Positions 1,274 through 34,439 of a stretch of 64,000 nt of DNA are shown here, piece by piece (within the stretch, counting starts at the first letter, position 1; every line of letters starts with the position of its first letter). This stretch comes from Methanospirillaceae archaeon (GTDB lineage: Archaea; Halobacteriota; Methanomicrobia; Methanomicrobiales; Methanospirillaceae). A program made the translations under genes and the position numbers. The stretch is taken from NCBI GenBank assembly GCA_016926505.1, contig JAFGOM010000076.1, positions 1 through 64,000 of the forward strand, given 5' to 3'. The notes under the pieces are model-generated. The model was given only the letters and a program-made list of their open reading frames with translations. It ran no database searches and was not told where the DNA came from.

Positions 1274-1284
1274 GGCCGGGTATT

Positions 1285-1791: not shown

Positions 1792-1800
1792 TTCAATCAC

Positions 1801-2244
1801 ATGGTGTCGTCACTCATAACCAGTGCAATCGGATTAATCATAATACTCATAGCCGGGTACGTGGTAGCGACCGGTATTCTCGTGACCTCTGAAACTGTAA
1901 TAGGAGCACAGAAGGAGATGAGTGCAATCCAGTCAGATATTCTTAATACTGGTATTACAATCACCAATACTGATAATGAGACAGACTGGGTAGCTCTTGA
2001 TGTTGAAAATTCCGGAAATTCAGTTATTTCTGATTTGGGTGCTATCGATATCTATGTCCTGGAAGGTACAACGATGACCCGGTACACCAATAATACGCCG
2101 ATAATCACCCCCACGTCAATTAACCCCGGATATTGGGATCCTGGTGAGACGCTTAATATCAGTACCACACTCAATACTGGACCATACCCGAAATGGGTTA
2201 AGGTCGCCACTCCCAATGGTATCACTGCATCTGCATATCTCTAA
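1801..2244 (+). CDS. arlF: Archaellum stator-like protein ArlF (FlaF)
   Basis: Protein of 147 residues: an N-terminal transmembrane helix (about 8-28, IGLIIILIAGYVVATGIL), a short amphipathic helix, then a beta-rich outer domain with DVENSGNSVIS. FlaF family proteins bind S-layer protein and hold the archaellum motor in place. Together with the preceding gene it makes the F/G pair; the order G then F is reversed relative to Methanococcus. The next gene starts 42 bases on. Confidence 0.75.
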   Translation: MVSSLITSAIGLIIILIAGYVVATGILVTSETVIGAQKEMSAIQSDILNTGITITNTDNETDWVALDVENSGNSVISDLGAIDIYVLEGTTMTRYTNNTPIITPTSINPGYWDPGETLNISTTLNTGPYPKWVKVATPNGITASAYL

Positions 2245-2286
2245 TTGGATTTTAGAACATAGTGATAACAAGGATAGGAAACCACA

Positions 2287-3051: not shown

Positions 3052-3052
3052 T

Positions 3053-4915: not shown

Positions 4916-4931
4916 CAGCCCGGAGAATGCT

Positions 4932-6533
4932 ATGGCAGAAGGGGGATTTATAGATAAGCTGAGAGCATCAAACCAGGGTAAACTCCCTTTTGAAGGTGCC
5001 CTGAAATCGATAAAAGCCCGGCTTTTTAAATTCATTATTGAAGATAAGCGCATGGGCGCAGATCTGCTCTTTATGATGACCTATATGGCTGCAATCATTA
5101 CGGCCCAGGCAACCCGTCCGGAGATATTTGCATACACCGGCGCCCGCCGGGAGTACGTCTCAACCCGGTATATCCAGAAAGCGTACCTCTTTGTCAAGCG
5201 GTGGGGGTATAGTTATGTCGAATCACTTGTGATGGTATCCAAGAAAGTAAAGAACGAGATGCTCTTTTCTATGCTCAACCGGTATGCAAACGCGATGGAA
5301 TCGGGTGTCCCAGATGCAGACTACATCATGGGAGAGCTTGATACCATCAGGAACGTATACCGGAGTCATTATGAACAGGGAATCGAGATGCTCAAGAAGT
5401 GGGGTGACGCCTATATCTCGCTCCTCTTTTCAGGTGCTCTCGTTGGTATCATCATCATGGTTTCTGTTGCCATATTCGCGCCTGATGATGTCAGTTCAAC
5501 CCTCTCTGTCTCGTACCTTCTGATAGGGACGATATCGGTCCTGGGTCTTGTGATGATGTTCAAGGCAGTTCCGGCAGATCCAAAGACCCACGGACTTTCC
5601 TTAGGTTCACCTGAGCAGAACATGATCCACCGGATAGAGCGTCGTATTGTTCCGGTCCTTCTCATCATCGTTGTTCTTCTGCTTTTTCTGGGAATGAACT
5701 TCGGACTTATCCTTCTCCTTATCGGAATGCTCCTCTTCCCGATTGGAGTTATCGGGTATATCGATCACACCAATGTCACCCAGCGCGATGCAGAATTTCC
5801 CACTTTTATCAGGGGGCTCGGGTCTATTCAGGGAGGAAAGGGGGGTACTATGGTGAGAGCTATCGAGGAGATAGACAAGAAATCACTGGTGGTTCTTGAG
5901 CCTCTCATCGGAGGGGTATATACCAAGTTAAACCTTGGTTTAAACGAACACCAGACCTGGATCCGGTTTGTGAACGACAGTGGCAGTTTCCTTATCTATA
6001 TGTACCTTAACATCTACCGGGACGCACTCGAGCTTGGTGGTGCTGCTGACAAGGTCGGGCAGATCGTGGGCTCTTCCATGCTGGAGCAGGTTCTCTTAAG
6101 TGATCACCGTCAGAACGTCTCGATGGGATTTATCACCCTTCTTGTTCCGATGCATGCGATGATGGTTGCAATCTTTTTATTTCTGTACCATATCCTGACA
6201 ACAATGAGCGTTGCAGTTACCCAGGTGATGAGCACCCTTGAGGATTCGAGTGCTGCTCTTTCAGGGACAGGAACATCGGTTGGCGGATCCCTTGCCGGCT
6301 CCCTCTTTGTTTTTGCAAACTTTGATGATGTTGTCATCGGCAGGTATGTCGTTATTATCGTCTCCATGCTTGTTATATCAAATACCCTTGCCGGCAAGAT
6401 TGTGATGGGTGGTGACCGGTACCTGCTCTATTTCTTTGCCAGTCTTATCTGTGCAGTCAGCGGAATTATTTACGTTATCGCACCGATTTTGATAGGATTG
6501 TTCTTCCAGATCCCGGCATTTGAGGGGGTTTAA
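4932..6533 (+). CDS. arlJ: Archaellum platform membrane protein ArlJ (FlaJ)
   Basis: Polytopic membrane protein of 533 residues, the archaellum platform that converts ArlI action into rotation and assembly. It has two type II secretion F-like cytoplasmic domains (about 50-170 and 290-390) separated by hydrophobic helices at about 165-215 and 235-280, with several more after residue 395. Cytoplasmic loops are basic. It begins 16 bases after arlI and is followed 3 bases later by an unrecognised gene that is probably co-transcribed. Confidence 0.93.
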   Translation: MAEGGFIDKLRASNQGKLPFEGALKSIKARLFKFIIEDKRMGADLLFMMTYMAAIITAQATRPEIFAYTGARREYVSTRYIQKAYLFVKRWGYSYVESLVMVSKKVKNEMLFSMLNRYANAMESGVPDADYIMGELDTIRNVYRSHYEQGIEMLKKWGDAYISLLFSGALVGIIIMVSVAIFAPDDVSSTLSVSYLLIGTISVLGLVMMFKAVPADPKTHGLSLGSPEQNMIHRIERRIVPVLLIIVVLLLFLGMNFGLILLLIGMLLFPIGVIGYIDHTNVTQRDAEFPTFIRGLGSIQGGKGGTMVRAIEEIDKKSLVVLEPLIGGVYTKLNLGLNEHQTWIRFVNDSGSFLIYMYLNIYRDALELGGAADKVGQIVGSSMLEQVLLSDHRQNVSMGFITLLVPMHAMMVAIFLFLYHILTTMSVAVTQVMSTLEDSSAALSGTGTSVGGSLAGSLFVFANFDDVVIGRYVVIIVSMLVISNTLAGKIVMGGDRYLLYFFASLICAVSGIIYVIAPILIGLFFQIPAFEGV

Positions 6534-6536
6534 CTG

Positions 6537-7637
6537 ATGAACCTGTCAGATTCCTCAAGACGGTTTATTCTCTTTCTCGTGATTGTTATCGGGGGATCTG
6601 TTCTTCTCATCTTTGATATTCCTGTGGTGTACCTCATGGTTGCTCTGTTTGGGCTCGCAGGCATCCTGCTCGTTGTAACCGGTGCCATCATCATCGGCGA
6701 TGTTATTCATGAGATCAGATATGTATTAAAAAACCGGAAACCAAAGGTAAAAAAAGTAAAGCCGAAAAAAGAGCCAAAACAAAAGAAAGAGCCAAAAAAG
6801 AGAGATAATGCAGGAAAAAGTTCCCCGTTCTCCCTTTTGTCAGGAAAGGGAGGATCAGATACACAGAAAACAAAGAAGGAGAAGAGTAGTCTTTTCTCAT
6901 CCCTCTCACGGGATTCTGCAGAAAAAGATGTTACCCAACGGGATATAAAAAGGCCAGGAAAAGCAGATACCCCACAACCAGGATCTGAAGAAAAAGACAA
7001 AAGTGAATCCACTACCGGACAGACGGTTATCAGGAAGAAAGAAGAAGATATAGACGCGGATCTCCTTGATGATTTTGATATCGATCTGGATCTTGATTCT
7101 GAGCTGGATTCCATGAATCCTGATGATGAGTTTAAGAGCATCAGGACTCCTTTTGCCGAAGATTCCGCAATGCCTGAAGCGAGCGATGTTCAGAAACTTG
7201 ATATCGCAACCTCTGAGGAAGATGATGAGATAATTTTTGATGAAAATGCGGTTGGTGACGATGATATCGATTCTATCTACAGCAGCGCCATGGATACCGG
7301 TTCGACAAGTGGATCTGATGACATACTTGCAGGTATGGAGGGTGGCGATTCAATCAGTATGTCAGATATCTCTTCCTACTCTTCAGGTGACGACTCCCCG
7401 TATGGGTACGGAGGGGATGAAGAGAGCGAGGAGCAGTACGAACTGGGTGCGTTTGGGAGTGGTGGCGGTGATGATGACCTTATCGCATCCTTAAAAGCAG
7501 ATATAAATGAGCTAAAAGAGAAAGATGATAATTGTCTTTTACGTGATCTCAAAGATATCGATGTATCTGCCGAACAGTTGCAGGAAGAATTACAGGATAT
7601 CATGGATATAATTACTAAAAAGATTAAAAAGAGATAA
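6537..7637 (+). CDS. Unrecognised two-TM acidic protein at end of archaellum operon
   Basis: Protein of 366 residues, not recognised. Two hydrophobic helices lie at about 10-30 and 33-58. Then comes a Lys/Pro-rich segment (about 65-90), a long Ser/Asp/Glu-rich, probably disordered region (100-315) with a very acidic patch near 175-200 (DADLLDDFDIDLDLDSELDS), and a C-terminal amphipathic coiled coil (about 320-366) ending in KKIKKR. The start is 3 bases after arlJ, and cheF follows 27 bases later, so it bridges the motor and the chemotaxis genes. The context suggests a membrane-tethered partner of the cytosolic ring; that is inference only. Confidence 0.8.
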   Translation: MNLSDSSRRFILFLVIVIGGSVLLIFDIPVVYLMVALFGLAGILLVVTGAIIIGDVIHEIRYVLKNRKPKVKKVKPKKEPKQKKEPKKRDNAGKSSPFSLLSGKGGSDTQKTKKEKSSLFSSLSRDSAEKDVTQRDIKRPGKADTPQPGSEEKDKSESTTGQTVIRKKEEDIDADLLDDFDIDLDLDSELDSMNPDDEFKSIRTPFAEDSAMPEASDVQKLDIATSEEDDEIIFDENAVGDDDIDSIYSSAMDTGSTSGSDDILAGMEGGDSISMSDISSYSSGDDSPYGYGGDEESEEQYELGAFGSGGGDDDLIASLKADINELKEKDDNCLLRDLKDIDVSAEQLQEELQDIMDIITKKIKKR

Positions 7638-7664
7638 TAGGTACACAATGGAACAGGGGATTTT

Positions 7665-8486
7665 ATGACTGAGGTTCCGGTCAAGATTGAGAAGGACGGG
7701 GCATGGGTAACATCGAAGATAGATGTTACCGAGAGTGGTCTTACTCTTCGTGAACCTTATAACAAAGATATCCCGTATCGTTCCATTGTTGATCTCCGTC
7801 AGCATAAAACGGTACTTCTTCTCACTGCAACCGGAGAATCAAAGACCGAGAACCATTACAAGATTGCATCGGTAGAAAAGGTGCTTGTGGTCCTAAAAAA
7901 GCGGATCATTATGTCCTGTAATGCATATCGTCTCATGGCGCATTTTATGTCTCCTGCAATCAGGGGTGGGGTATTAGTGACTGATGCGAAATGGGAGAAG
8001 GGAGCTGTTGCCGTATTAAAGACCGGGATCTGGTTTGTCAGCCAGGATAAACAGGTCTGTGTACCTTTAGATGAGGTTACCAGCCTTGAACTGACAAAAC
8101 GTGAACTGCAGAAGAAGAAACTTGACGTGGTCAAGATTGATTTTCTCGATGAGAACGAGGTGGTCACCAGTTTTGTTCTCTGTCCCCTCTCAACCCTGCA
8201 GGTTCTGTACAGCTTTCTTAAGGATGCGACAAAAGACAAGGATATGAAAGGAGCTGAGCTGGATCAGCTTGACGCCCAGTCAGCCCAGGTTGCAATGCTC
8301 GTATACAGTGGCATGGATACGCATGCTATTGAGAACATGTTAAATATCTCCCAGACTGAACTGGATGCAATATACGAGACATTACTGAAGTTAAAACTGG
8401 TTGAGGTAGTGATGATCAGAAAAGAAGTCCAGTTAACACCAAAAGGAGTCAGATATATCACTGAAGCACTCAGACCGCCGGCATAA
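7665..8486 (+). CDS. cheF: Archaeal chemotaxis adaptor CheF
   Basis: Protein of 273 residues matching the archaea-specific CheF family (DUF439). CheF binds phosphorylated CheY and the ArlC/D/E ring, carrying the switching signal to the archaellum. The N-terminal beta-rich half starts with a PH-like pattern (VKIEKDGAWVTSKIDV); the C-terminal 70 residues look like a winged helix (MLVYSGMDTHAIENMLNIS to LTPKGVRYI). The start follows AGGGGATTTT. It lies between the archaellum and che genes, the standard place for CheF. Confidence 0.9.
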   Translation: MTEVPVKIEKDGAWVTSKIDVTESGLTLREPYNKDIPYRSIVDLRQHKTVLLLTATGESKTENHYKIASVEKVLVVLKKRIIMSCNAYRLMAHFMSPAIRGGVLVTDAKWEKGAVAVLKTGIWFVSQDKQVCVPLDEVTSLELTKRELQKKKLDVVKIDFLDENEVVTSFVLCPLSTLQVLYSFLKDATKDKDMKGAELDQLDAQSAQVAMLVYSGMDTHAIENMLNISQTELDAIYETLLKLKLVEVVMIRKEVQLTPKGVRYITEALRPPA

Positions 8487-9943: not shown

Positions 9944-12900
9944 ATGAGCGAGATGGAGAGTTACCGGCTCCTTTTTGTTGCCGAATCGCGGGAAAACCAT
10001 GAGAGTATCGTTCAGAATCTGTTGATCCTCGAACAGGGATCAGATGAAACTGCCATCGATAATATCTTTCGCTCTGCCCATTCACTCAAAGGGATGTCAG
10101 CCTCTATGGGATACAGCACCATGGAGGAGGTCTGTCATGCCCTCGAGGATGTCTTCTCAAGAATCAGGAATGATACCCTGCAGGTCTCCCAGCAGTTAAT
10201 CGATGACCTCCTCGCCGGGGTCGATGATATCGAGATGATGATTGATGACATTGAGACAGGAGGAGACGGGAATGTTATTGATCTCGAAGCACGGGTTGCA
10301 TCACTGAAAAAATGGCTTTCTGCCGATACCGGTCATCCTCTCCCCGCTGATTCCGGCACGCCTGAAGTTTTACCAGCACGGACACAACCCGGCCAGACAC
10401 CATCATCCCCGTCAGTGACACAGACAGAGCCCTCCGGTTCACGGTCCTATCATGTTCATCTCACCCTCTCAGATACCTGTGATTCAAAAAATTTACGAGC
10501 AATGATTGTTCTGCAGAATCTCGAGAGTATCGGGACCATATCTTCTCTTACTCCTCCAAGGGAGACGATTGAAGATGACGAATCCTTTGACGGGACGATT
10601 GATATCGTAATGACCTCAGATAGCGGTGATGAGGCCATTGCGATTATTACCGGTACCTCTGACATTGCATCGGTCTCAATCGAGAAGAAAGATGTAACCA
10701 TGATAACCGGTGCAGCATCTCCAAAAACCCCTGCACCCCCGTCATCTTCTTCAGTCGGTTTGGTTACGTATAATATCCGTCTCGGGATGTCTGATACCTG
10801 CGATTCAAAGAATTTACGTGCAATGCTTTTTCTGGGGAACCTTGAGGGTATCGGGACCATATCTTCTCTTACACCTTCCCGCGAGACGATCGAAGATGAT
10901 ACCTCATTTTCCGGCTCAATGGAGATAACCGTTCAGACTGATGCAGAAAAAGATATTCTCCAGAAGATGATATCATCCTCTGACTTTGCACATGGCTCTG
11001 TTGAGCAGTCAGGGATACAAACACCGTCCGCTGCACCGGAAGAGACTGCTCATCCCAAAAAGGAAGGAATGGCACCTGTCTCTCCTCCTCCTTCCTCTCC
11101 TGCAGAAAAGCCGGAATATTCTATCCATGTCGTGATCTCAGATATCTGTGACTCCAAAAATTTACGAGCCATGCTGATCGTTTCCAACCTTACGACGATT
11201 GGCGAGATAGTTGCCATCACTCCTCCCGTAAATACCATCGAAGATGATCAGAATTTCACCGGGGTTCTTGATATCAGGCTCGCATCAGAGAGTGATAGAG
11301 CCCGGATTGAATCGTTTCTGAAAGGATCTGATGTAGCCTCCTACACGGTTATCCCACCGGGGGGGAAAGAGGAGCCGGTTCGCGCTACACCTGTGATGAA
11401 GCGATCAGAGGAGAGACCGGCAGAGCAGCGCCCCTCTGTCGCAGCAGCCCGGGATGATGCCGCACCCAAGAAGGTACGCGAGGTCAAGAATATCAGGGTC
11501 GATATTGAGCGTCTTGACCACATGATGAACCTGGTAGAGGATCTCGTGATAAACCGGGGAAGGCTTGAGCTGATTGCAGAGAAGTACCGGATAAAGGAGC
11601 TCGATGAGACCTTAAACATGGTAAATCGGTCTGTTGCCGATCTCCAGGTTCTGATGATGGATATCAGGATGATCCCGCTCAATCAGATCTTTAACCGGTT
11701 TCCCAGAACCGTCCGTGATATTGCAGCAAAGGAAGGGAAAGAGGTAGATTTCATCATCGAGGGTGGAGACACGGAACTCGACCGGAGTGTGATGGACGGG
11801 TTAAATGATCCCCTTTTGCATCTCATCAGGAATGCGATTGATCATGGTATTGAATCTCCCAAAGAACGGAGAGAAGCGGGGAAAAATCCAAAGGGTATCT
11901 TACGCCTCTCTGCCTCCCGTGACAAGGATAATGTTGTGCTGGTTATCGAGGATGATGGAAAGGGACTCAATGCTGAAGTAATAAAGAAAAAAGCACTACA
12001 AAAGGGACTTTCAACAAAGGAAGCACTTGACGATCTCTCTGACGAGGAAGCCTATGAGTTACTCTTCCTTCCCGGTTTCTCAACTGCAGAGAAGATTACT
12101 GATATCAGCGGCCGTGGTGTCGGGCTTGATGTGGTCCGGACCTCTATCAATGCACTTCAGGGTACCATCAAGCTGGATTCTGAATCAGGAATTGGTACCC
12201 GGTTTGAGCTGGTCTTACCTCCCACGATGGCTATCGTTATGGTGATGATGGTCAGGATGAATAACCGGCGTTGTGCCATCCCTATCAATAATGTTGCAGA
12301 GGTTGCAAGTCTTGCTGCATTCCCGATCCGAAGGATAGGAAAGGGCGAAGCAATCCTCATGCGGGAGGAGATTATCACCCTGTACCCGCTTGATGATATG
12401 TTCGGGAAGAGTGAGAATGGTGAGATCCTTATTATTTTACAGTACCAGAACCAGAAAGGGGCAATCATTGCGGATCTCATCGAAGGGCAGCAGGAGGTTG
12501 TTATCAAACCCTTAAGTAAGTTTGTCGGGTCATGTGAAGGGATAAGCGGGGTGACGATCCCGGGTGACGGGGAAGTTGTTCCGGTTCTTGATGTAAACTC
12601 GATTATCAAGGAACCAACCACCCAGAGGAGTACCAAAAAGAAGTCAAAGACCGTTGTTACCTCTGCAGTAACAACCCAGGAAAAGGATAGCGGGATTATC
12701 TTTTCTGAAAAGAACTGTGATACCTTAAAGGAACTGGGAAATATCGGGGCAGCACATGCGGCAACAACCCTCTCAACCATGTTAAACACAACCATCGCCA
12801 TCGAGGTACCTGAAATTACGATTGTCGACCTCGCAGAGGTTTCCCGATATGTAAGCGATGATCGGGCTGCACTGGTTGCCTTTCAGATTCAGGGAGAGGT

Positions 12901-22316: not shown

Positions 22317-23108
22317 TTATTCTTCAGTACTGACGGTAGCGTCCGGTTCATCAGCCACGCTGCTGTCATTCTCTGCAAGCGTCTCTTCTGCCTCTTCTGT
22401 TAGAGGAACAATGGTCACCACGAAGTTGGAGACAGACTGGGGACCAACCATCATGGCTGCAGTCTCTGAGCAACCAAACGAAGGTGCCTGTCCGTTTACA
22501 AAGAGTACTTTCATCTCTGACTCATCATTACCAGCGACTGTCTCTTCACCCGGGGCAAGCGTCTTTGTCGTCGTCTCCTCACCGCTTACCACGGTTACAT
22601 CAGCCGATAATGCCGTGCAGATGGTACCGCTGCAGTTACCACAGTCCGGAGTGGTGCTGTAGGTAACCTGGTACCCTCCTGAAAGACTGATAAAGGAAGA
22701 GAGGGTGCCGATATCCCCCCAGACATCGGTCGCAACCATACCTGCGGTCTCGTCCTCTGTCATCTTTGCAACCGTGATCCACTGGCCGTCCCCGCCACCG
22801 AGGGTGGTAACCGTAATCATGTCTCCGGCAGCCAGAGTGGTGATCATGGACGAATCAAGGATCAGAGAAGAGGAACTGATCGGTTCGGCCAGGTCACTAA
22901 ATCCACAGACGGGATCTCCTTCCCCGTCTCCATAATCACAGCCGTAACTTGTGGTAAAGGTGGCATACAATGTTTCATTATCACTATCGATGGTGGTTAT
23001 TTCACCCTGCATGGTCATCTCCTGGATGACTGCAGAGACCGGGATCACCATGCAGATACAGAGTGCCATTGCACAGACAATGGCGTAAATCATTTGGTTT
23101 CGTCTCAT
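22317..23108 (-). CDS. Exported protein of unknown function
   Basis: Protein of 263 residues, not recognised. A signal peptide covers about residues 1-28 (IYAIVCAMALCICMVIPVSA). The mature part is acidic, Thr/Ser-rich and beta-like, with cysteine pairs near CDYGDGEGDPVC and CGNCSGTIC that may form disulfides, and an acidic tail. A TTG start 6 codons upstream exists, but ATG at 23108 has GTGAT four bases before it. It is downstream of and on the same strand as the pilus-type genes, so it could be a surface partner of that system (inference). Confidence 0.75.
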   Translation of the reverse strand: MRRNQMIYAIVCAMALCICMVIPVSAVIQEMTMQGEITTIDSDNETLYATFTTSYGCDYGDGEGDPVCGFSDLAEPISSSSLILDSSMITTLAAGDMITVTTLGGGDGQWITVAKMTEDETAGMVATDVWGDIGTLSSFISLSGGYQVTYSTTPDCGNCSGTICTALSADVTVVSGEETTTKTLAPGEETVAGNDESEMKVLFVNGQAPSFGCSETAAMMVGPQSVSNFVVTIVPLTEEAEETLAENDSSVADEPDATVSTEE

Positions 23109-23211
23109 AATTATCACATGCCACAATCTCTTGTGTCATACCATCTATCCCACTCGTACCTGATATTCCTGACGGTGAGTGGCAATTTTTTGGCAGTTAT
23201 TAAAAAAAGAA

Positions 23212-25140
23212 TCAGAATGCAAAGTTGAATGCAATCATGGCAATTATTATCAGGATAGCAGCATGTTTAATTCCTGCCTTCACCGCTGATTCCCCCATAA
23301 GACCGGCAATAAGACCTGAGAAGATTGCCTGAACAAGGCAGGTATGATACAATATCCTGTCTATGGTCTTTAGTGAGAGGTTGCCCAGGTTTGCAAGCGG
23401 TCCTGCCATGGACAGCCCTTCGGTTGATACTTCTGCGAGGACAGCGAGAAATTGCGTGGATATGATCCCAATCACGAAGATAAAAACAAAGAATGACATA
23501 TACACGATAGCCGTGTAGATAAACATCTCACTGAATCGTTCACGCTTTAAGTACTCAGAGATACGGGCATCGGTTGCAGCGATATGAAGCACATCAGCGA
23601 TTGAACTGTTCATCGTGCTTGCTTTTGTAATAAGGGTGACAGAACGGGCAATAAGGCCGGTTCTGACCCGTTCCTCGAACCGGATCAGGGCATCGGAAAA
23701 GTTTGCTCCCCATGAGAGATCCCGGTGAATTCGCTTTATCTCGTAACTTAAAAGTCCGAGATTGGCACTGACGAGGATGCCGATGGACTGGGCAACCGTG
23801 ATGCCAACCTCGTTGATTCCGGCCATCCTGTCAAGAAAATCAGGGATAATCCGTTCCATCCCCCTGATACGCCGGTTCCAGGTCTCAAAGAATGCAGCAT
23901 AGGGAATGATAACAACAAGAAGGACAATCATGAGATAGTCATCGACTGAGTTGATGAGATCTTCAGTCTCTGCTCCCCACGGAGCATGGTACAGGATAAA
24001 GATTACCAGGATTATCGCGATCGGGAGGGTTATATAGACTGACCGGATTGGTTTTTCGATAAACCCTTTCATCGGATGACGAAACCAGTCCTTCAACCCC
24101 CTGACCCTATCATACTTAAGAAGGGCATCAAAGAGCGACTCTTCTCCTTTGCCGGATACAATCCGTACATCAGGAAACTGGTGCAGCCATATGGCCTTTG
24201 TATACCTGATAATATCTTCGTCTTTGATTGATATGGTATCAATAAGGATGATAAAGATGACCGATCCGATAGGAAGGACGGCATATCCCATAAGCGTAAG
24301 CTCAAGGACTGCCGAGGCACCAAGCATCCCCATAACCACCATGATGACAATGAGAAAAAGCGGACCTGCGATAAAGACCGTGACATAGACCTCGGCAATG
24401 AGGGCAAGAAACGAGAGGAACTGTTTCTGCTCAAACTTAGCCTCATCCTGGTACAGTTTGACCCGTTCTGAAAGAAAATCAGCAAGAATGCCTCCGCTCT
24501 CGACGATGGATATCATGTCCTGGAGAAATTCCCGCAATTTTTGCGACGGAGTCGTCTCTATCAGGGATTTAATCGCAGTAACCTGATCTTTTCCAAAGAT
24601 ATCACAATCGCGCACTACCTGTCGGAACTCATAGGCAGTCTGACCGTAAATGGCCGAACTCTCGGATAATGACCGGAATATAACAAGAATTTCCGCCCCT
24701 CCCCTTCTCATGGCATACATGTATGCAACGGCATTATGAAGTCCGATGTTGATCTTTAACTCGCGGTTTTTCTTCTCGAGTGACGGGTACATCTTACCGA
24801 GTGAGAAGACAAGGTAGGTGACAAAGAGAAAGATAAGGATGGAGACTATCAGCTGGAAGAGAAAGGTTGTGAAGAATGCAGAGACAAAAACGGGAACCTT
24901 CAGGTTAAAGATATTTACAATATCAGACTGAATGGTAAACTCGGTCCTGACTCCGATTCCAACGATGAGAAACCCGATAATGGCAAAGATAAATCCTAAT
25001 GCGACTGATGAAAATACAAGGATCGTAAGATATCTCTCAAGGGTGATACCCATCCGTGTTGCCATTAAATTCATCCGTAAGGAATGAAACCGGTAGGGAT
25101 CCCGGTTGATCCATCGGTGAATCAGGTGATAATTATTCAT
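23212..25140 (-). CDS. Pilus-type FlaJ/TadC-like platform membrane protein
   Basis: Integral membrane protein of 642 residues with two type II secretion F domains (about 90-200 and 415-530), each followed by hydrophobic helices (about 235-290, 350-400 and 545-640). This is the archaeal type IV pilus platform family, paralogous to ArlJ in this window. Its start overlaps the stop of the ATPase gene by 4 bases, so the two are co-translated and form an assembly pair. No pilin or prepilin peptidase is seen nearby. Confidence 0.9.
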   Translation of the reverse strand: MNNYHLIHRWINRDPYRFHSLRMNLMATRMGITLERYLTILVFSSVALGFIFAIIGFLIVGIGVRTEFTIQSDIVNIFNLKVPVFVSAFFTTFLFQLIVSILIFLFVTYLVFSLGKMYPSLEKKNRELKINIGLHNAVAYMYAMRRGGAEILVIFRSLSESSAIYGQTAYEFRQVVRDCDIFGKDQVTAIKSLIETTPSQKLREFLQDMISIVESGGILADFLSERVKLYQDEAKFEQKQFLSFLALIAEVYVTVFIAGPLFLIVIMVVMGMLGASAVLELTLMGYAVLPIGSVIFIILIDTISIKDEDIIRYTKAIWLHQFPDVRIVSGKGEESLFDALLKYDRVRGLKDWFRHPMKGFIEKPIRSVYITLPIAIILVIFILYHAPWGAETEDLINSVDDYLMIVLLVVIIPYAAFFETWNRRIRGMERIIPDFLDRMAGINEVGITVAQSIGILVSANLGLLSYEIKRIHRDLSWGANFSDALIRFEERVRTGLIARSVTLITKASTMNSSIADVLHIAATDARISEYLKRERFSEMFIYTAIVYMSFFVFIFVIGIISTQFLAVLAEVSTEGLSMAGPLANLGNLSLKTIDRILYHTCLVQAIFSGLIAGLMGESAVKAGIKHAAILIIIAMIAFNFAF

Positions 25141-27185
25141 GCGGTTATGACAGAGAGATCATCGAGGTTCTCAAGAACAAATTCTCTTCGTATGTAAAAG
25201 GTATGGAATATCTTTGAGACACTGATATAATCATGGATGTTCTGTTCATTCATTGCATTTAAGACAGAGAGTCTCTGGTTGAACTCATCGGTTAACTGCT
25301 CCTGGCTCCATCCCCGTTCGGTTGCGATACTCCCGAGGACCTGAGACCTGCCGGTAAAATTAAAAACGTCCTGAATGGGATCGTACTCATAGACCGTGTT
25401 TACCATGATATTACCGGTTGCCGGATCAATACCGGCAATCTCGACTATCTCCTGGCAGCGACGGACCCGTTCCTTTCCACGGTAAACCTGTGCCTGGATA
25501 CTGATGATGTTTAAAGCCTGAAGCATTGTTCTCGGGACATTGAGTGGCTGGTTCTCAAGCCGGTGAATAGCCCCGTCAACACTGCCTGCATGCATGGTTG
25601 AGAAGGTGGTATGTCCGGTATTCATCGCCTGAAAAAGAGTCTGGGCTTCTTCACCCCTGACTTCTCCGACCAGGATATACTCGGGGCGCTGTCGCAGAGC
25701 AGCTTTTAAGAGCGCAAACATACTGATCGAGTGACTCCCTTCCGTAACCCACTCACGGGTAACACTGGCAATCCAGTTATCATGGTACAGGGTAACTTCT
25801 CTGGTATCCTCGATGGATATGACCTTGGTAACCGGAGGAATAAAGAGAGATACCGCATTTAATGAAGTTGTCTTTCCCGATGCGGTACCGCCGATAAAGA
25901 TGATGCTCTTGTTGTTCTCGATGGCTATCCAGAAGTACACAAGCATGTGCGGATTAAATGTTTGGGTATTAATGAGGTCGATCGGGGTAAACGGTGATTC
26001 CCGAAACTTCCTGATGGTAAACGAGGTCCCCCTGCTCGTGACCTCTTTGCCAAAGCTCAGTTGCAGTCGTGAACCCTCAGGCAGGGTTGCATCGATGAGC
26101 GGATTTCCAATCGAGACATGTTTTCCGGACCGCTGGGCGAGAGATATGGCAAGGTTCGTGAGCGCCTCTGATTCAAAGGTGATATTGGTGATGATATTTA
26201 AGTAGGTGCGGTGATACAGGAAAAGGGGGATATTGTCTCCGTCACAGGAGATATCCTCAATACCCGGATCCTTGATGAGGGGATCGATACGACCCCATCC
26301 AAGGTAGTTGCGGATCAGGTAATACTCAATCTTAAAGATGGATCTTTTTGGTACCTCAACACCGTACTCAGAGAGCAATTCATATACTTTCTGGTCTAAA
26401 ATCCGTCTCCTGTCAATGGAAAGTTCATCATCGGTAAGAATGAGGACCATCCGCAGATCCTCAAAAAGCCGCTCGAGGAGTTCGTACTCAAACTCTGTAA
26501 GTGCGGGTTCGTATAAGAGGTACTCATTCTGACCTGTTTTTTTATTATATACAATAAAAACCTTTGACTTGCCCGGTTCGATCCAGTACTCCTCGATAGT
26601 GGTATAGGTAGAGGTATCGATCGATGTCTCAAGGAGTGTTCCATGGGTATCAAGGTCGTAATCTAAAAAGAGTTCAGGTTTCTTCCGGGAGAGGGTCTGA
26701 ATTATCTTCTTGCCGATACCCTTCTCGGTACTCTCAATCTCGTGGGAAAGTGCTTTTTTCAGGTCTGAATCAGAGCGGGAGACAGGAACTTCTCTCTTTT
26801 TTTCCTGTCGTGCTGCAACCCCCGGGAGAGTGATATGAAATCCGTCAGACTCCGGTACCTTTATGGTGACCGGTTCATCATCGGGTTCGATGACATCATC
26901 CTGGATTATTTCTGACCAGTCAGATGAGATATTGGTTCCGAAATCCTTTGGAGGTGGAGGAAGCACCGGATCATCAGGAAGGGAAATGTCAGACTCAGAG
27001 AGAGAGTGGGTAGATGATACCGGTTTTATTGCAGGTACACCGGTCTTTTTTGTATCCTGTTTTTTGGGTGATTTATTGTCAGAACCGCCTGTTTCTGTTG
27101 TTTTTTTCTGGTTTTTTGATGAGGAAGAACCCCAGGTGATCTTAATCCGTGTCTTTTTTTTCTGAGGGGGTTTAGAGGATTGCAT
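25137..27185 (-). CDS. Pilus-type secretion ATPase (GspE/FlaI-like)
   Basis: ATPase of 682 residues of the type II/IV secretion superfamily. Residues 1-150 are Lys/Ser/Pro-rich and probably disordered; the ATPase core follows with Walker A GGTASGKTT near residue 430, Asp box and Walker B (YILVGEVRGEEA) and His box (GHTTFSTMHAGS). It should power assembly or retraction of a pilus through the overlapping FlaJ-like gene. The long charged N-terminus differs from ArlI. Its promoter must lie in the 226-base gap shared with the divergent KaiC-like genes. Confidence 0.92.
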   Translation of the reverse strand: MQSSKPPQKKKTRIKITWGSSSSKNQKKTTETGGSDNKSPKKQDTKKTGVPAIKPVSSTHSLSESDISLPDDPVLPPPPKDFGTNISSDWSEIIQDDVIEPDDEPVTIKVPESDGFHITLPGVAARQEKKREVPVSRSDSDLKKALSHEIESTEKGIGKKIIQTLSRKKPELFLDYDLDTHGTLLETSIDTSTYTTIEEYWIEPGKSKVFIVYNKKTGQNEYLLYEPALTEFEYELLERLFEDLRMVLILTDDELSIDRRRILDQKVYELLSEYGVEVPKRSIFKIEYYLIRNYLGWGRIDPLIKDPGIEDISCDGDNIPLFLYHRTYLNIITNITFESEALTNLAISLAQRSGKHVSIGNPLIDATLPEGSRLQLSFGKEVTSRGTSFTIRKFRESPFTPIDLINTQTFNPHMLVYFWIAIENNKSIIFIGGTASGKTTSLNAVSLFIPPVTKVISIEDTREVTLYHDNWIASVTREWVTEGSHSISMFALLKAALRQRPEYILVGEVRGEEAQTLFQAMNTGHTTFSTMHAGSVDGAIHRLENQPLNVPRTMLQALNIISIQAQVYRGKERVRRCQEIVEIAGIDPATGNIMVNTVYEYDPIQDVFNFTGRSQVLGSIATERGWSQEQLTDEFNQRLSVLNAMNEQNIHDYISVSKIFHTFYIRREFVLENLDDLSVITA

Positions 27186-27420
27186 GATAAACCTGTGATG
27201 ATAGTTTTTATGTGATACCTGCTATTAGATTGTTGTTATATATGATGATCCCGATTCTGATGTTTTCCATACCCCTGTCGTTTTTCTTAAGGGAAATAAA
27301 AACCAACCGTTCCAATGCCTCATCCTGGTCTTTTTGATGGCGACATCGGGTATCAGTAAGATAAACATATATCATAGCGGGGATATGATTTATTATCACG
27401 CATAAGTTCCAGTGAGTCCA
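27186..27420. promoter_or_regulatory. Divergent promoter region between pilus ATPase and KaiC-like genes
   Basis: This gap separates two divergent operons and must hold both promoters. AT-rich stretches near 27233-27245 and 27361-27373 are possible TATA boxes for the left and right operons. No gene is seen in it. Confidence 0.35.
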
Positions 27421-28248
27421 ATGGAGAAGGATTTTTTAAAACGGATGCCGACAGGGCTTACCAGTCTTGATCCGGTTTTTGATGGTGGTGTTCCAATTGG
27501 CTCGCTCATTCTTCTTTTAGGCGAAATTGGTGCAGGGAACAGGGATTTTGTATATACTTCCATCATTAACCTCTCGCTCAGATCACCGCTTTCTTCTGAC
27601 TCAGACTATATCTATCCAAAAGAGATACACTATGTTACGGTCTCAAAGGTCAGGGATGATATCATGCGTGAGATCTCCCTCTCCTTTAACCCGGACCTGC
27701 TGGAACAGTTTGACAGAATTATCTTTGATGATCTCTCAAATATCTACTTTGACTCAAGTGTTGTTCCGTTCTCCTGGTACAGCAATGTTGAAAATGTCCT
27801 TGATCGCATGGAACAGCGAAAGGTTCGAGAGAACGTTTTTGCAAGTCTGTCAGATACCCTTTCAGCGATCCCGCATGACAGTCTTGTTATTCTTGACTCG
27901 CTTACCGAGATGGCATCCCAGAGTCTTGCTTCCGGTCACTGGGGAAATCTGACGGCATACCTGCGTGGTTTGCAGCGGATCAGTAAATCATGGGGAACAA
28001 CGATCTATCTTATCCTCACAAAGGGCGTTTTTAACCAGTGGCAGGAACTTGAGATTGCCGATGCCGTTGATGCGGTGCTGCACTTTAAATGGGAGGACTC
28101 TGCTGCGGCACGTCGACAGCGGATCATGTTCTTTGAGAAGTTCCGGGGTGTGATGATTCATCTCGAGGAGAAGGATCTCGTGAAGTTCTCAGTCCGTGTC
28201 ACCCCGGGCAGGGGATTTGAGGTCAGCAACATCAGGGTGATCGTATGA
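27421..28248 (+). CDS. RecA/KaiC-like ATPase homologue with degenerate Walker A
   Basis: Protein of 275 residues of the KaiC/FlaH-like RecA superfamily (TGLTSLDPVFDGGVPIGSLILLLG). At the P-loop the sequence is GEIGAGNRD, where the Lys and Thr/Ser of GxxxxGK[ST] are replaced by Asn and Arg, so ATP hydrolysis is unlikely. The Walker B-like strand (LVILDSLTEM) is kept. ATG 27421 is preferred over GTG 27412 as a normal codon with GTGAG upstream. It overlaps the next KaiC-like gene by 4 bases and is divergent from the pilus ATPase, so a FlaH-like regulatory role is inferred. Confidence 0.85.
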   Translation: MEKDFLKRMPTGLTSLDPVFDGGVPIGSLILLLGEIGAGNRDFVYTSIINLSLRSPLSSDSDYIYPKEIHYVTVSKVRDDIMREISLSFNPDLLEQFDRIIFDDLSNIYFDSSVVPFSWYSNVENVLDRMEQRKVRENVFASLSDTLSAIPHDSLVILDSLTEMASQSLASGHWGNLTAYLRGLQRISKSWGTTIYLILTKGVFNQWQELEIADAVDAVLHFKWEDSAAARRQRIMFFEKFRGVMIHLEEKDLVKFSVRVTPGRGFEVSNIRVIV

Positions 28249-28943
28249 GTTCTGATCGGGTTGCTTTTGGTATACCCGGGCTTGACGAGATGCTCTCCGG
28301 AGGACTGATTCGGCGGACTGTTGCAACCATTAACGGGATGTACGGTACCGGCAAGACCTCCTTTGCCCTGTGCTATATCTGGACCGGACTGCGTAATGAT
28401 GAGAATGTCATCTATATCAGTCTTGAGGAGAGTTCTGACCGTATACGGACGTACATGGAACTGAGGGGGTGGGATCTCAGCCCCTACCTCGGAACCCGCC
28501 TGACGCTTGTGAACCTTGATCCATCCAATTTCCATCTCGCGGTAAACAGTGTGAAAAATGAGTTGCCTGAACTCATCCGATCACTTGGTGCCACCCGTGT
28601 CGTGATAGATCCCATCTCGCTCTTTGAGGATCTCTTTGACGAGGATGTCGAGCGGCGCCGTGAGATGATGCGGATCATGGAGGGATTACGGGCCCTTGAC
28701 TGTACGGTTGTTATCACAACAGAATCTGACCGGAACAACCCTTTCTCAAGTCGTCACAACCTGGTTGAGTACTTAAGTGACACGGTGATACTGCTTCGGT
28801 ATGCACGGGGAGATGTGAACTCTGATGTTCATCTCGCAGTGGAGATTGTCAAGATGAGAATGTCATCCCATTCCCGCGAGGTGAAACCGTTTGAGATGCG
28901 TCATGACTCAATAATCGTGTACACCGAAGCAAATGTATTCTGA
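28245..28943 (+). CDS. KaiC-domain ATPase (intact Walker A)
   Basis: Protein of 232 residues, a single KaiC/RadA-type domain (FGIPGLDEMLSGGLIRRTV) with an intact Walker A at 31-39 (GMYGTGKTS), the Glu pair after the second strand (SLEESSDRI) and Walker B RVVIDPISLF. Such stand-alone KaiC proteins in archaea are often signalling partners of motility systems. Its ATG overlaps the stop of the degenerate paralogue by 4 bases, suggesting an active/inactive heteromer. Function not proven. Confidence 0.88.
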   Translation: MSSDRVAFGIPGLDEMLSGGLIRRTVATINGMYGTGKTSFALCYIWTGLRNDENVIYISLEESSDRIRTYMELRGWDLSPYLGTRLTLVNLDPSNFHLAVNSVKNELPELIRSLGATRVVIDPISLFEDLFDEDVERRREMMRIMEGLRALDCTVVITTESDRNNPFSSRHNLVEYLSDTVILLRYARGDVNSDVHLAVEIVKMRMSSHSREVKPFEMRHDSIIVYTEANVF

Positions 28944-29155: not shown

Positions 29156-29416
29156 CTATATTGCCCCAAGCAGATGGAGTATGATAATGAGGATTGCTCC
29201 GGGAATTCCACCAAGTGCACAGATTAGTACGGTCAGCCAGGTTATGGTGATATTTTGGAACCCGAAATACCCGAGCAGGTGGGTATAATTCACAATAAAA
29301 AGCAGAAGAAGACCCAGAATTGAGTTGATAATAATTTTCGTGATGCTATGCAGTGCAAAGTACAGCATGATCAGGATCAGGAGTCCGACAATCAGGAGAA
29401 AAACCGTTTCAATCAT
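29156..29416 (-). CDS. Small BofA-like integral membrane protein
   Basis: Protein of 86 residues made of hydrophobic helices (about 3-24, 28-48, 60-84) with ITKIIINSILGLLLLFIVN and CALGGIPGAILIIILH. This matches the pro-sigmaK-processing inhibitor BofA family, which is widespread in archaea that do not sporulate. The archaeal role is unknown. It stands alone, with no operon partner. Confidence 0.75.
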   Translation of the reverse strand: MIETVFLLIVGLLILIMLYFALHSITKIIINSILGLLLLFIVNYTHLLGYFGFQNITITWLTVLICALGGIPGAILIIILHLLGAI

Positions 29417-29525
29417 GATAATTCCGGTATAGTGTTTATCTACTCCGTTATATGAGTATTTTTATGGAATGGTCAGGTCTCAGTTCTTTGTTTCCCGGGA
29501 TAACAGTTTCTATTTGTGCAATGAT

Positions 29526-29600
29526 TTTTGTATTGAGCACTTTTGTATTGAGCACTTTTGTATTGAGCACTTTTGTATTGAGTACTTTTGAATTGAGTAC
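29526..29600. repeat. 15-bp tandem repeat, five units
   Basis: Five head-to-tail 15-base units (TTTTGTATTGAGCAC; units 4 and 5 differ by one or two bases) cover 29526-29600. The unit is a multiple of three, so frames on both strands stay open through it (a 61-codon plus-strand frame encodes repeated VLSTF). I see no ribosome binding site or domain and treat it as a non-coding microsatellite-like repeat between the BofA-like gene and tldE. Confidence 0.85.
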
Positions 29601-29685
29601 CCTGATATTGATCTTTGACTGGTTGCAGATCGGTTAAAAAAAGGATACAATTCAGGATTTCTGTTTCCAAACCGGATGCCGCCTG

Positions 29686-30999
29686 TTATGCCTTTCCGAT
29701 TAATGTCTGATCAGCGATCAGTACCGTCGGCAGTATCATGTTCCCTCGTGTTCTGGTCTCTTTAGAGACACATAATACCTGGTTTAAGAGAGAAAACACG
29801 TTACCTGAGAGCATTGCTGACCTGATCGGTTGCGAGAGTTCTCCATCCCTGATAAAGAACGGAGAAGAGAGTTCAACCGAGAAGTCACCACTCATCGGAT
29901 TTGCGGTGTGGGCCCCGACAACATCCCTGATAAAGACTGCATCTTCTTTATATACCGAACCGGCCGGTCCGTTCAGGATGAGGTTATGAAATCCGATACC
30001 GGGAGACCCGGCCATTCCCGTCCTGACTGCACTTGCTGTTGTCTCTTTGCCGTACCGGTACGCGGTGCGCAGGTCATAGGCAAACTGCTGCAGGATCCCG
30101 TCTCTGATGAGATCAATCCTTCGTACCGGAACACCTTCGCCATCCCAGTAACCGTTTGCGCTCCCCCGTGGATCAAGTGGATCATCATAGAGCTGGATCT
30201 TTTCTCCACAGATCTGGTCTCCGATCCGGTCAGCAAGAGCAGAGCGGCCTGCATGAACATTACGCCCGGATAGTGCCGGTACAAGTACCGCATCAAGGAG
30301 CTGGGAGAGGGCATCGGGAGAGAGGACGATATCATAGGTTCCGGTGTCGAGTTCTACACCCCGCTCACCGGCAGAGGCATACCAGGATGCAGTCTTTCCC
30401 ACGGCTATCGGATCGATACGTCGTAATTCCCATGATGCATCATGTTCATACCCGGTAGACTGCCCCTGTATCATCTCAATAGAGGTCGATACGTGGGTGG
30501 TTGGTTCAGTAAGGAAGAGCCCGCCCGAGTTTGCTAGAGTCACGGTGCCGCTTGAGAGCGAGGCATGGGCCGATGTGATGGCAGCATCATGCTCCTTTGA
30601 TCCGGTTATCATCCCGGAGATCAGATTTTTTAAGCAGTCAGAACTGACGTTGAGGTCCGGATCAAAGGCAAGGCGCGTGTTGCTTCTTAATGTGCCTGCA
30701 TCCTTGGGCAGTCCCTCCCAGTTCTGTTTATCTGCGAGGTTCCCGCCTGCGATTGCTGCATACAGGCACTCCTTCCACCGTTTCGGTGAATCTGAAGATG
30801 AGATTCCTATCCTGCCATCATTCACCGTCCGTATCATGATACCGGAAAATCGTGAGGCTGAACCGATAGTAATCTCACCCCTTCTCATATCTGCACGGAT
30901 TTCCTGTCCCTCTCCGATACAAACCTCAACCTCGTCAGCCTTCCCTGCTGCCTCGGCAAAGAGATCCTCAATCAAGACTGCTCCCTCCGATAACTGCAT
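29686..30999 (-). CDS. tldE: TldE/PmbA-type peptidase subunit
   Basis: Protein of 437 residues of the TldD/PmbA family. TldE is the partner of TldD in a heterodimeric metalloprotease that degrades or matures peptides. It lacks the HExxxH motif, as expected for the E subunit, and has the conserved C-terminal GNVFSLL region. Its start overlaps the end of tldD by 32 bases. Second gene of lonB-tldD-tldE. Confidence 0.9.
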   Translation of the reverse strand: MQLSEGAVLIEDLFAEAAGKADEVEVCIGEGQEIRADMRRGEITIGSASRFSGIMIRTVNDGRIGISSSDSPKRWKECLYAAIAGGNLADKQNWEGLPKDAGTLRSNTRLAFDPDLNVSSDCLKNLISGMITGSKEHDAAITSAHASLSSGTVTLANSGGLFLTEPTTHVSTSIEMIQGQSTGYEHDASWELRRIDPIAVGKTASWYASAGERGVELDTGTYDIVLSPDALSQLLDAVLVPALSGRNVHAGRSALADRIGDQICGEKIQLYDDPLDPRGSANGYWDGEGVPVRRIDLIRDGILQQFAYDLRTAYRYGKETTASAVRTGMAGSPGIGFHNLILNGPAGSVYKEDAVFIRDVVGAHTANPMSGDFSVELSSPFFIRDGELSQPIRSAMLSGNVFSLLNQVLCVSKETRTRGNMILPTVLIADQTLIGKA

Positions 31000-32308
31000 C
31001 TTTTAAGAGAATGTGGGGTGCTCCGTCTGAAACTGCTGCAGTCTGGCCATTCTTTCCGCAGAACCCGGCATGCAGCTTCTGATCATTTCCACAGAGCATA
31101 ACCTGATGAAGCGTTCCAAGAATATCTCCTGAAAGCGAGACATCTCTGACCATGGTTGTACATTCCCCGTCTTGTATCAGGTATCCGTACTCGGCATTGA
31201 ACTGAAATACTCCCCGTCCGGGATCCACCTGTCCTCCCCGGGAACCTTTCAGAAGGATTCCATTCCTGCACTCACGTATTATCTCATCATAATCAGCGTC
31301 TCCATTCTCGATAAACGTGTTACTCATCCTGACGATAGGAACCTCTCCTGCCATTCCGCGTGCATGCCCTAAAATCCCGGTATCCTCTCCCAGCGCTGCC
31401 ATGCTCTCCATCGAATGCAGGTATGCAGATAAGACCCCGGATCTGATAATTCCGGTTCTTTTGGTCTCTCTGCCCTCGTCATCGACAGGACAGAATCCAA
31501 AATTATGCAGGGTCGGGTCGTCGGTGATAGAGATCACCGGAGACCCGACTCTTTCACCGATCCTGCCTGCAAAAACTGAACTTCCTTCCTGCACAAGATC
31601 CCCCTCGGCAGCATGACCGACTGCTTCGTGTGCAAATACCCCTGCCAGTTCGGGGTCAAGCACCGCATGTGCAATTCCTCCTTTCGCCGGCTGTGCCTCT
31701 AAAAGATCCCGGGCGATGGTCCCGGCCTGAAGGGCCAGATCCTGCTGGTGCCTGATATTGAGACCATCAATGGTATGACGGCGTTCGTACCCGATCTGGG
31801 TAACGCCATTCCTGCTCGCAACAGCCAAAATGCCAAACCCACACCGGCAGATGTCATAGGTGAACCGATTATCCGAACTGTTAAAGAACGTGACGGTACC
31901 TGTCCGTTCAACATAATTAACCCTTGTATTGACAATATCAGGCAGTTTTGCATGTCGTTCCATCTCAAGAAGAATCTCTGTCTTCTCACCGAGATCGGTA
32001 TCTCTCGGATCTTCTTTTGGTTTTGGAACGGAAAGGACCCGGCATTTGCCTTCGATTATCGATATTGCACCGTTAGTAATCTTTGCAGCTAAAAGGGCTT
32101 CCTTTAGCAGAGATAATGGGAGGGTATCGCCGGGGATACGATCCCCGTTTACCGAGAGAACTCCCCATCCCACCGGTCCGAGGACACGGATGAGTGCAAG
32201 GTCAGTAAAAGAGGTTCCGGCAGCCTCGATAACTCCGTTATCAATATCAATCTGGGTGACTTCTCCGGTAACTCTCCTGACATCGTAGTACCGGTACGGC
32301 AGGCTCAT
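30968..32308 (-). CDS. tldD: TldD metalloprotease subunit
   Basis: Protein of 446 residues with the zinc motif HExxxH in FAHEAVGHAAEGD (about residue 227), followed by the conserved C-terminal cysteine (LCGNDQ). It is the catalytic subunit of the TldD/TldE protease, which in bacteria processes unfolded or modified peptides. Its ATG directly abuts the lonB stop codon. Confidence 0.92.
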   Translation of the reverse strand: MSLPYRYYDVRRVTGEVTQIDIDNGVIEAAGTSFTDLALIRVLGPVGWGVLSVNGDRIPGDTLPLSLLKEALLAAKITNGAISIIEGKCRVLSVPKPKEDPRDTDLGEKTEILLEMERHAKLPDIVNTRVNYVERTGTVTFFNSSDNRFTYDICRCGFGILAVASRNGVTQIGYERRHTIDGLNIRHQQDLALQAGTIARDLLEAQPAKGGIAHAVLDPELAGVFAHEAVGHAAEGDLVQEGSSVFAGRIGERVGSPVISITDDPTLHNFGFCPVDDEGRETKRTGIIRSGVLSAYLHSMESMAALGEDTGILGHARGMAGEVPIVRMSNTFIENGDADYDEIIRECRNGILLKGSRGGQVDPGRGVFQFNAEYGYLIQDGECTTMVRDVSLSGDILGTLHQVMLCGNDQKLHAGFCGKNGQTAAVSDGAPHILLKDAVIGGSSLD

Positions 32309-34393
32309 TTACGCAACCGTCCGTGGTATCTCAAGGTCCCCCGATGGAATCACCCGGTTACTCGCATTTATGGCAATGGTCTTTATTCTCGATACAAATG
32401 TGTCGCGGTTATCTGGTTCCAGGGCGATCTCGAGTACCTCATCGATGGAAGAGACCGGAATTATCTGAACCATATCCTTGTATTTCTCTTCCAGCAACAC
32501 ATCGCCGAGGTTGGACTGGGGGATGATTACCGTTTTGATCCCTGCTTTAGCTGCTGCCTCTATCTTGTACGTCACTCCACCAATCGGGAGGACATCTCCC
32601 CTCACGGAAAGTGACCCGGTCATTGCGATATCCTGTCTCACCGGTATCTGTTCGAGTGCACTGATTGCAGCAGTTGCGACAGTGATCGATGCCGAGTCCC
32701 CTTCGACTCCCTGGTAGGTACCGATGAACTGGATATGGATGTCGATGTCTTTTATGTCTTTCCCGGTGAATTTCTTCAGGATTGCCCCGACATTCTGGAT
32801 CGATTCCTGCGCGATCTCCTGAAGAAGTCCGGTTGCGATGATCTCACCACCGCCTTTTCCCTGGGTGGGAGTAATCGTTGCCATGATAGGAAGGACCGAT
32901 CCGGCATCACTTCCCATCACTGCAAGGCCGTTGACCCTTCCGATCTGGGATCCCTTCACGACAGCCAGGTCATATTCACGGGTTCTGTGAATGTACTGGT
33001 CAGATATCTGGTCTTCAATGGAGCGTGCGGTATTTTTTGCCCTTATTACATGTTCTCTCGTGGTAAAGGGAACGTTCTCTTCCCGTGCCAGATCCCCTGC
33101 AACCCGGATAAGGCCACCCATGTCGCGTAACCGAAGCGTGATATGTCCTTTCCGGTTCGCCCGCCGTCGTGCCTCTGTTAAGAGTTCCTCTATGGCATCG
33201 GCATCAAAATGGGGAATCATCCCGTCGTTTGTTACTTCCTGGGCAACGAACCTGATAAACCGTTCCCGGTTCTCCTGCGTGTCCAGCATGGTGTCTTCCA
33301 TGTATACTTCGTACCCGTTTCCCCGGATACGGGATCGGAGTGCCGGGTGCATCCCTTCAACTGCATCGACATTTCCAGCCGCAACCATGACAAACCGGCA
33401 GGGAACCGGTTCTGTCCTGACCATTGCTCCGCTTGAACGTTCACTCTGACCGGTAATGGCAAACTCTCCTTCCTGGAGTGCAGTAAGAAGGCTCTGCTGG
33501 GATGGGAGGCCTAACGTGTTTATCTCATCGATAAAGAGAACGCCCTTGTGCGCCCGGTGGATAGCACCCGCCTCAACCCGGTCATGGGCCGGGGTCTCAA
33601 GTCCTCCGCTCTGGAAAGGATCGTGCCTGACGTCTCCAAGAAGCGCCCCTGCATGGGATCCGGTCCCGTCCACGAAAGGCGCAGTTGTCTTTTTGTCGTT
33701 TGAGAGGAGGAGCTTTGGGATCATCGCCTCCTCCTTCGGGGTTGCATACCGAAGAGCCATGAAGATAAAGGCAGCTGCGATGATACCCATGAGCCACTGG
33801 TACGTGATAAAGGCATATCCGATGATCCCAATGATGAGGATCATGATAAGCGTGCTTCTAAACTGGGTCTTTTTCCTGGCTTCCGCTTTGTGAGCAGCCA
33901 CGATCTCCTTCCCCCTCCCTGCTTTAACCGTCCGGATGATGGGTTCGTTCTGATCCTCGCTGTTCGGGTAAACTAAAATGTCCTGTAACTCTTCCTTTGG
34001 AAGGAGTTCTGCCATCGCCTTGGCAAGCATGGATTTACCGGTTCCCGGTGTTCCAATCATCATAACATGACGGCGCTGGATTGCGGCTTTCCGGATCACC
34101 TCCACTGCATGTTCCTGGCCGATGACCTGATCAATCAGGCGTTCCGGCACGATAATGGATTTTGAGGTTCCCTCCGGAATCTCCTCCTCTTCAGCTGTTT
34201 CCGGTTCCAAAACCGTGTCTGCCAAATTTCCTGCTTCATCCGATAATTCATCAGGGTTGGTTGGTTTTTTCATTGGATTATCGTCCGGGAAAGTGTCTCT
34301 CTGTTCTTTTTCCTCTGTTTGAGTTATTTTATCTGCTTTTTCATCCATATTGTCGTTATTTGTAGTTATTTCATCAGAATCAGACTGTACCAT
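32309..34393 (-). CDS. lon: Membrane-bound archaeal Lon protease (LonB)
   Basis: ATP-dependent protease of 694 residues. An acidic N-terminus of about 80 residues precedes the AAA+ module with Walker A GTPGTGKS (about residue 110-117). Two transmembrane helices (about 180-220, [12 protein letters not shown] and [11 protein letters not shown]) are inserted in the AAA+ domain, the mark of archaeal LonB. The C-terminal protease has the Ser-Lys dyad (EGDSASIT and [10 protein letters not shown]). It removes damaged and regulatory membrane and cytosolic proteins. ATG 34393 is chosen over an upstream ATG at 34438, which would sit in the divergent promoter; GAGGG lies upstream of it. Confidence 0.94.
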
Positions 34394-34439
34394 TATGATT
34401 TTACCCTCTACCCGTGAGTAAGTGGATATACATTTCATA

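Follow-up and report, generated by a model that had tools for sequence, protein, structure and literature searches.

Two described archaeal systems bear most closely on the genes reported here. The first is the archaellum, in which the KaiC-like protein ArlH binds the ATPase ArlI and is thought to stimulate its activity when ATP-bound; autophosphorylation of ArlH leads to its release from ArlI (PMC8978795). The second is the euryarchaeal ATPase/TadC module (haloarchaeal PilB/PilC and A. fulgidus GspE; clade 2, PMC4858521), which has an overlapping ATPase–platform pair, an ATPase outside the archaellum clade and pilins that are often encoded elsewhere. Makarova et al. (2016) reported KaiC genes (arCOG01172/arCOG01173) beside such VirB11/TadC operons in Methanomicrobia; archaeal loci of a pilus ATPase and TadC that have KaiC neighbours, and whose pilins are made in trans, have been described since 2016 (PMC4858521). 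The PilB3 locus carries no pilin, yet it is needed for pili made of PilA, which is encoded elsewhere (PMC4858521). A third point of reference is TIGR03880 (KaiC_arch_3), a family of single-domain KaiC proteins annotated as hypothetical.

The locus described here lies in a window of 64,000 nucleotides from a Methanospirillaceae archaeon (contig JAFGOM010000076.1, positions 1 to 64,000) and consists of two divergent gene pairs, as follows.

23212–25140, minus strand: J, platform (TadC/PilC/ArlJ-type) membrane protein of 642 residues with two T2SSF domains (Pfam)
25137–27185, minus strand: I, pilus assembly ATPase (VirB11/GspE family) of 682 residues (Pfam T2SSE, 115 bits)
27186–27411: intergenic region of 226 bases that separates the divergent genes I and H1, read directly from the sequence; presumably two putative back-to-back promoters
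27412–28248, plus strand: H1, degenerate KaiC/ArlH-fold protein of 278 residues, a pseudo-ATPase candidate (weak Pfam KaiC match)
28245–28943, plus strand: H2, single-domain KaiC ATPase of 232 residues (Pfam KaiC, TIGR03880)

The initial annotation described a FlaJ-like and a FlaI-like gene overlapping by 4 bases, facing a divergent pair of KaiC/FlaH-like genes with an overlap of the same length. Both overlaps are real: the open reading frames lie at the coordinates above, with I upstream of J on the minus strand and H1 upstream of H2 on the plus strand, and H1 and H2 both match KaiC. The Pfam T2SSF match of J (97.5 bits) falls in two stretches, and no relative of J was found by sequence among solved structures. 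An N-terminal extension of about 180 residues is present in I.

The genome holds an archaellum in addition to the four-gene system, and the true archaellum H-I-J genes occupy 2287–6533 of the same window.

362–8486: archaellum operon with its own KaiC-fold ArlH, ArlI, ArlJ and CheF
1285–1791: protein with an archaellin match
2287–3051: ArlH
3053–4915: ArlI
4932–6533: ArlJ
7665–8486: CheF-like protein, with chemotaxis-type genes after it

The block resembles the archaellum ArlH-ArlI-ArlJ core in joining a KaiC-fold protein to an ATPase of the hexameric class and a platform protein. It differs in having two H-like proteins rather than one, in the absence of ArlC–G and in a divergent arrangement rather than a single operon; moreover, its I protein belongs to another clade, and H1 and H2 score 28.9 and 39.8 bits, respectively, against the ArlH model NF052589, far below the cut-off of 215. 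With the euryarchaeal ATPase/TadC module it shares the overlapping gene pair, the position of the ATPase outside the archaellum clade and the adjoining KaiC-family genes. The difference here is that two KaiC-like genes are linked, one of them with a dead P-loop, and that they are co-inherited with the motor. The likeness to PilB3 is drawn only at the level of the module. H2 is a member of TIGR03880 above its cut-off; in contrast to the hypothetical status of that family, both a conserved partner and a candidate target can be named for it.

An intact and a degenerate KaiC-like protein

H2 scores 164.5 bits against Pfam KaiC (PF06745) and 306.7 bits against TIGR03880 (cut-off 249.45). It aligns with KaiC along its length and contains both the LEE pair and, near the C-terminus, the K-[LM]-R-x-[ST]-x-H stretch, which reads K-M-R-x-S-x-H in H2. 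KaiC uses these two elements at its ATP site and at the contact between subunits. The match of H1 to PF06745 is 31.7 bits (cut-off 26.6).

As the initial annotation noted, one of the two H-like proteins has no P-loop lysine. This protein is H1, in which GEIGAGNRD stands where H2 has GMYGTGKTS, and the lysine is therefore gone from H1 only. In the motif lists of relatives GK[ST] occurs in none of the 136 readable H1 rows and in 121 of the 123 H2 rows. The lysine of H1 is retained only in eight Methanospirillum-type rows, where it is not followed by S/T, and the P-loop stretch of H1 relatives reads G-[AGS]-G-x-x-[ED]-[FL]. The remainder of H1 is strongly conserved, with about 33 invariant columns in 16 rows. 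As judged from these alignments, the broken P-loop is ancient and near universal among the relatives. Because the loss is so widespread and the other residues are so well conserved, H1 is a long-lived degenerate KaiC protein and not a recent wreck, and its interpretation as a decaying remnant was ruled out.

H1 is predicted to have the KaiC/FlaH fold. Its AlphaFold model (pLDDT 82) gave a Foldseek TM score of 0.72 (target-normalised) to both the KaiC CI domain and FlaH (PDB entry 4YDS). Translation of H1 probably starts at the ATG at 27421 and less likely at the GTG at 27412, since the methionine corresponding to the former is invariant in 16 relatives.

Gene order and joint inheritance

The arrangement J and I on one strand, H1 and H2 on the other (J– I– H1+ H2+), was found in 101 of the 140 loci read, a count in which some genomes appear twice (the named loci overlap the G handles) and most of the remaining loci are cut by contig ends or are without a partner. 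Since the arrangement recurs in more than 100 loci, the possibility that these are chance neighbours in one genome was ruled out. In this order (Methanomicrobiales) the block is flanked by LonB-TldD-PmbA-BofA and by the archaeal ATP synthase operon. This flanking gene order is also conserved, so adjacency alone is weak evidence within the order and is partly plain synteny. In the window, BofA-like, PmbA, TldD and LonB genes (29156–34438) adjoin H2, and this block is conserved across the order. The same divergent four-gene block occurs in other orders and families of the phylum with other flanking genes (loci L179–L182 and L185), and at L184 and L186 it is found with altered orientation or extra copies. 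The four-gene set that the initial annotation proposed to look for in other methanogens is thus present both in this order and beyond it, although some lineages are without the linkage.

Two further features were noted at these loci. At L184 the gene for a protein of 534 residues (9984–11588) overlaps the 5′ end of H1, and its product may be a sensor that signals to H1–H2. At L179 (8358–8924) and L181 (11512–12054), which we tentatively label Methanocella-like, a conserved protein of 180–188 residues lies beside H2 and is followed by a third KaiC-like gene; the L179 copy of this protein has no Pfam match.

To follow the set across the order we surveyed 150 genomes of the Methanomicrobiales. 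H1 was found in 100 of these, and H2 in 87 at a threshold of E ≤ 1e-30. The J orthologue is present in 97; it was separated from paralogues by E-value and, mostly, by an uninterrupted frame, according to our judgement. J and H1 occur together in 97 genomes, H1 only in three, J only in none and neither in 50; the Fisher test of this co-occurrence ignores relatedness, and its p-value is not to be taken at face value. The initial annotation had named separation of the two halves in other genomes as grounds for refutation; by these counts the halves mostly stay together. Of the three genomes with H1 only, G090 is split into 250 contigs and carries H1 close to the start of one, and the remaining two have completeness values of 76% and 70%. 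Thirteen genomes have H1 without a listed H2; they are mostly Methanocorpusculum-like, and a diverged H2 adjoins H1 in the loci that were read. Presence and absence are both found within single genera (g4, g16, g20, g24 and g31), which indicates that the whole unit has been lost more than once. Comparison with the archaellum, using its platform protein, gave 78 genomes with both, 22 with the set only, 33 with the archaellum only and 17 with neither, which is not a significant association. The four-gene unit is lost whole and independently of the archaellum. Co-occurrence and conserved arrangement together support the proposal that these four genes form a coherent unit.

There are nevertheless lineages in which the halves stand apart. 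In some Methanocorpusculum-like genomes (L069–L076) H1–H2 remain beside PmbA while I–J are elsewhere, and in the I tree the relocated I is sister to the in-place I. In such genomes H2 has decayed, with the P-loop lysine changed to arginine and the LEE pair lost. Tentatively labelled Archaeoglobi-like loci (L194–L198), as well as L183 and L190, carry H1–H2 without I–J nearby, and tentatively labelled Halobacteria-like loci (L187–L189 and L191–L193) carry H1 alone, without H2 or I–J and with the same broken P-loop. Near some of the lone H1 genes in the latter are genes for a coiled-coil protein and for a zinc-ribbon protein similar to transcription factor S. These cases suggest that the pair may have a wider role. 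The pair is not absolutely tied to I–J, which keeps alive the alternative that H1–H2 are a general KaiC-type signalling pair, acting on transcription or some other process, that stands beside I–J through conserved gene order and affects the pilus indirectly or not at all. The KaiC-like protein CirA of Haloferax, which affects motility and cell shape through regulation (PMC13286277), lends this alternative some weight. The near-perfect joint presence and joint loss with I–J in this order and the recurrence of the divergent block in other orders, in different surroundings, argue against it, and we consider it unlikely overall, while according it an appreciable chance.

Pilins and the phylogeny of the ATPase

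The initial annotation stated that no pilin is nearby. This is true within the window, where there is no pilin in the four-gene block or just beside it, but it is not a property of the system because relatives carry pilins in the locus. At L179 J is followed by a Pilin_N (PF07790) protein scoring 36.8 bits and by a larger protein that resembles a pilin, and at L185 another Pilin_N protein, with 83.8 bits, is encoded between I and H1. At L054 and L055 an archaellin-family (PF01917) protein (78–94 bits) follows J. In Methanocorpusculum-like loci L066–L068 a small protein with a pilin-like N-terminus is found between H1 and I; the one copy searched has no Pfam pilin match. Within the present genome a search for pilins located Pilin_N genes on other contigs, including stand-alone pairs on contigs 5 and 82, and one prepilin peptidase gene (Peptidase_A24, PF01478) on contig 56 (30.2 bits, cut-off 26.5). 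The location of pilin genes away from I–J fits the case of PilB3 (PMC4858521).

In one family (f2; L054–L059) the archaellins directly after J form a dedicated clade, and a pilus-type motor stands there beside an archaellin-type subunit. In the five genomes concerned this clade (96/99) is apart from the archaellins of the archaellum loci of the same genomes.

We also note a secreted protein (22317–23126) after J on the same strand in the window, which was not seen at this position in the loci of relatives. It was considered as a hidden pilin and rejected, as it has no family match and, by eye, has a Sec-type signal peptide and no class III motif. One might suppose that I–J drive not a long filament but a pseudopilus that serves secretion or the uptake of DNA, with H1–H2 as the switch, and both this secreted protein and the absence of a major pilin from the window locus could be cited in favour. 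However, typical pilins or an archaellin adjoin J in relatives, and the secreted protein is without either a family match or a counterpart after J in the relatives' loci, so that we regard a pseudopilus as quite improbable.

The nature of the motor was addressed through the phylogeny of I. Against the FlaI model I scores 408 bits and does not reach the cut-off of 550. The closest solved structure is that of A. fulgidus GspE (PDB entry 2OAP; 493 bits), compared with 298 bits for Sulfolobus FlaI. In a tree of 54 rows, which included archaellum ATPases, the I proteins of the order, A. fulgidus GspE and paralogues, the archaellum ATPases (ArlI and Sulfolobus FlaI) form one side of a 100/100 branch, with I outside. 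The I proteins of the order form a 100/100 clade on the other side, and A. fulgidus GspE and two paralogues from this genome (contigs 80 and 109) also lie on that side. From this placement opposite the archaellum ATPases, I is assigned as a type IV pilus ATPase. The label 'FlaI-like' given to it initially is appropriate at the superfamily level only, as I falls below the FlaI cut-off and is closer to GspE than to FlaI. A PilB3-like C-terminal domain (PF23989) was sought in I and did not reach the cut-off (16.3 versus 27 bits). Two elements of a non-archaellum archaeal type IV pilus are therefore present: a VirB11/GspE ATPase of the pilus clade, identified by both T2SSE and the tree, and a TadC/PilC-type platform encoded with it.

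We note in addition a locus on contig 109 of G000 (L077, 6775–11448), with another I, a platform protein in two parts (310 and 340 residues) and a divergent KaiC-like protein of 205 residues whose P-loop is also without lysine (GSACSGIEYF). It is a second case of a pilus locus that adjoins a degenerate KaiC gene.

The suggestion that the block repeats the H-I-J core of the archaellum is correct insofar as the same three functional classes are present, but not by descent. No ArlC/D/E, ArlF, ArlG or archaellin gene was found in the four-gene block or adjoining it, and a second archaellum is ruled out by the I tree and the lack of significant association with the archaellum. A reduced second rotary motor of the archaellum type, comprising an H-I-J core without the ArlCDEFG stator parts, would share its three classes with ArlHIJ and might draw on the archaellin-family gene after J in one family, but is highly improbable in view of the position of I outside the archaellum ATPase clade, the missing stator genes and the independent occurrence of the set and the archaellum.

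Proposed role of the KaiC-like pair

In our view, it is reasonably likely that the four genes belong to a type IV pilus, distinct from the archaellum and of the euryarchaeal ATPase/TadC kind, and encode its cytoplasmic motor (I), its membrane platform (J) and a dedicated regulatory pair (H1–H2), with the KaiC pair gating I. By analogy with ArlH and the archaeal swimming motor, the pilus motor is probably under the control of this pair. We infer the formation of a complex, the gating of I and the filament itself, and envisage them as follows. I and J would assemble a thin filament from pilins with class III signal peptides, made in trans in this genome; the Pilin_N genes that stand alone in pairs on contigs 5 and 82 are candidates. 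H2 would carry the ATP cycle, either binding and turning over ATP or phosphorylating itself. H1 would keep the fold, be unable to bind ATP in the usual way and serve as a scaffold, an adaptor or a non-cycling subunit of a mixed ring with H2. The H1–H2 assembly would dock on I and, in the manner of ArlH on ArlI, toggle filament assembly according to which nucleotide it holds or whether it is phosphorylated.

A bolder proposal joins two statements: that a mixed H1–H2 KaiC ring is a dedicated, nucleotide- or phosphorylation-driven switch of the pilus ATPase, and that in one family the pilus-type motor assembles a dedicated archaellin, and not a PilA-type pilin, as a non-rotating filament. Taken together these are speculative, and we think it doubtful that both hold.

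The initial annotation raised the possibility of a regulated pilus or secretion system of a type not described. Of this suggestion, the pilus-type system and its KaiC-like partners are upheld, but 'not described' is too strong given the 2016 precedent (PMC4858521). A search of the literature, in which few subscription papers were covered, gave no account of a paired active and dead KaiC unit or of its joint inheritance.

The ancient and conserved loss of the P-loop in H1 points to a functional role of the dead subunit and speaks against decay. KaiC-like proteins are regarded as hubs of archaeal signalling, yet few direct targets are known for them outside the archaellum. For H1–H2 the ATPase I is a clear candidate target; the pair is inherited jointly with it in many lineages, and its two members differ, one being active and the other dead. 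This combination makes the gating of type IV pilus motors by KaiC-like proteins directly testable.
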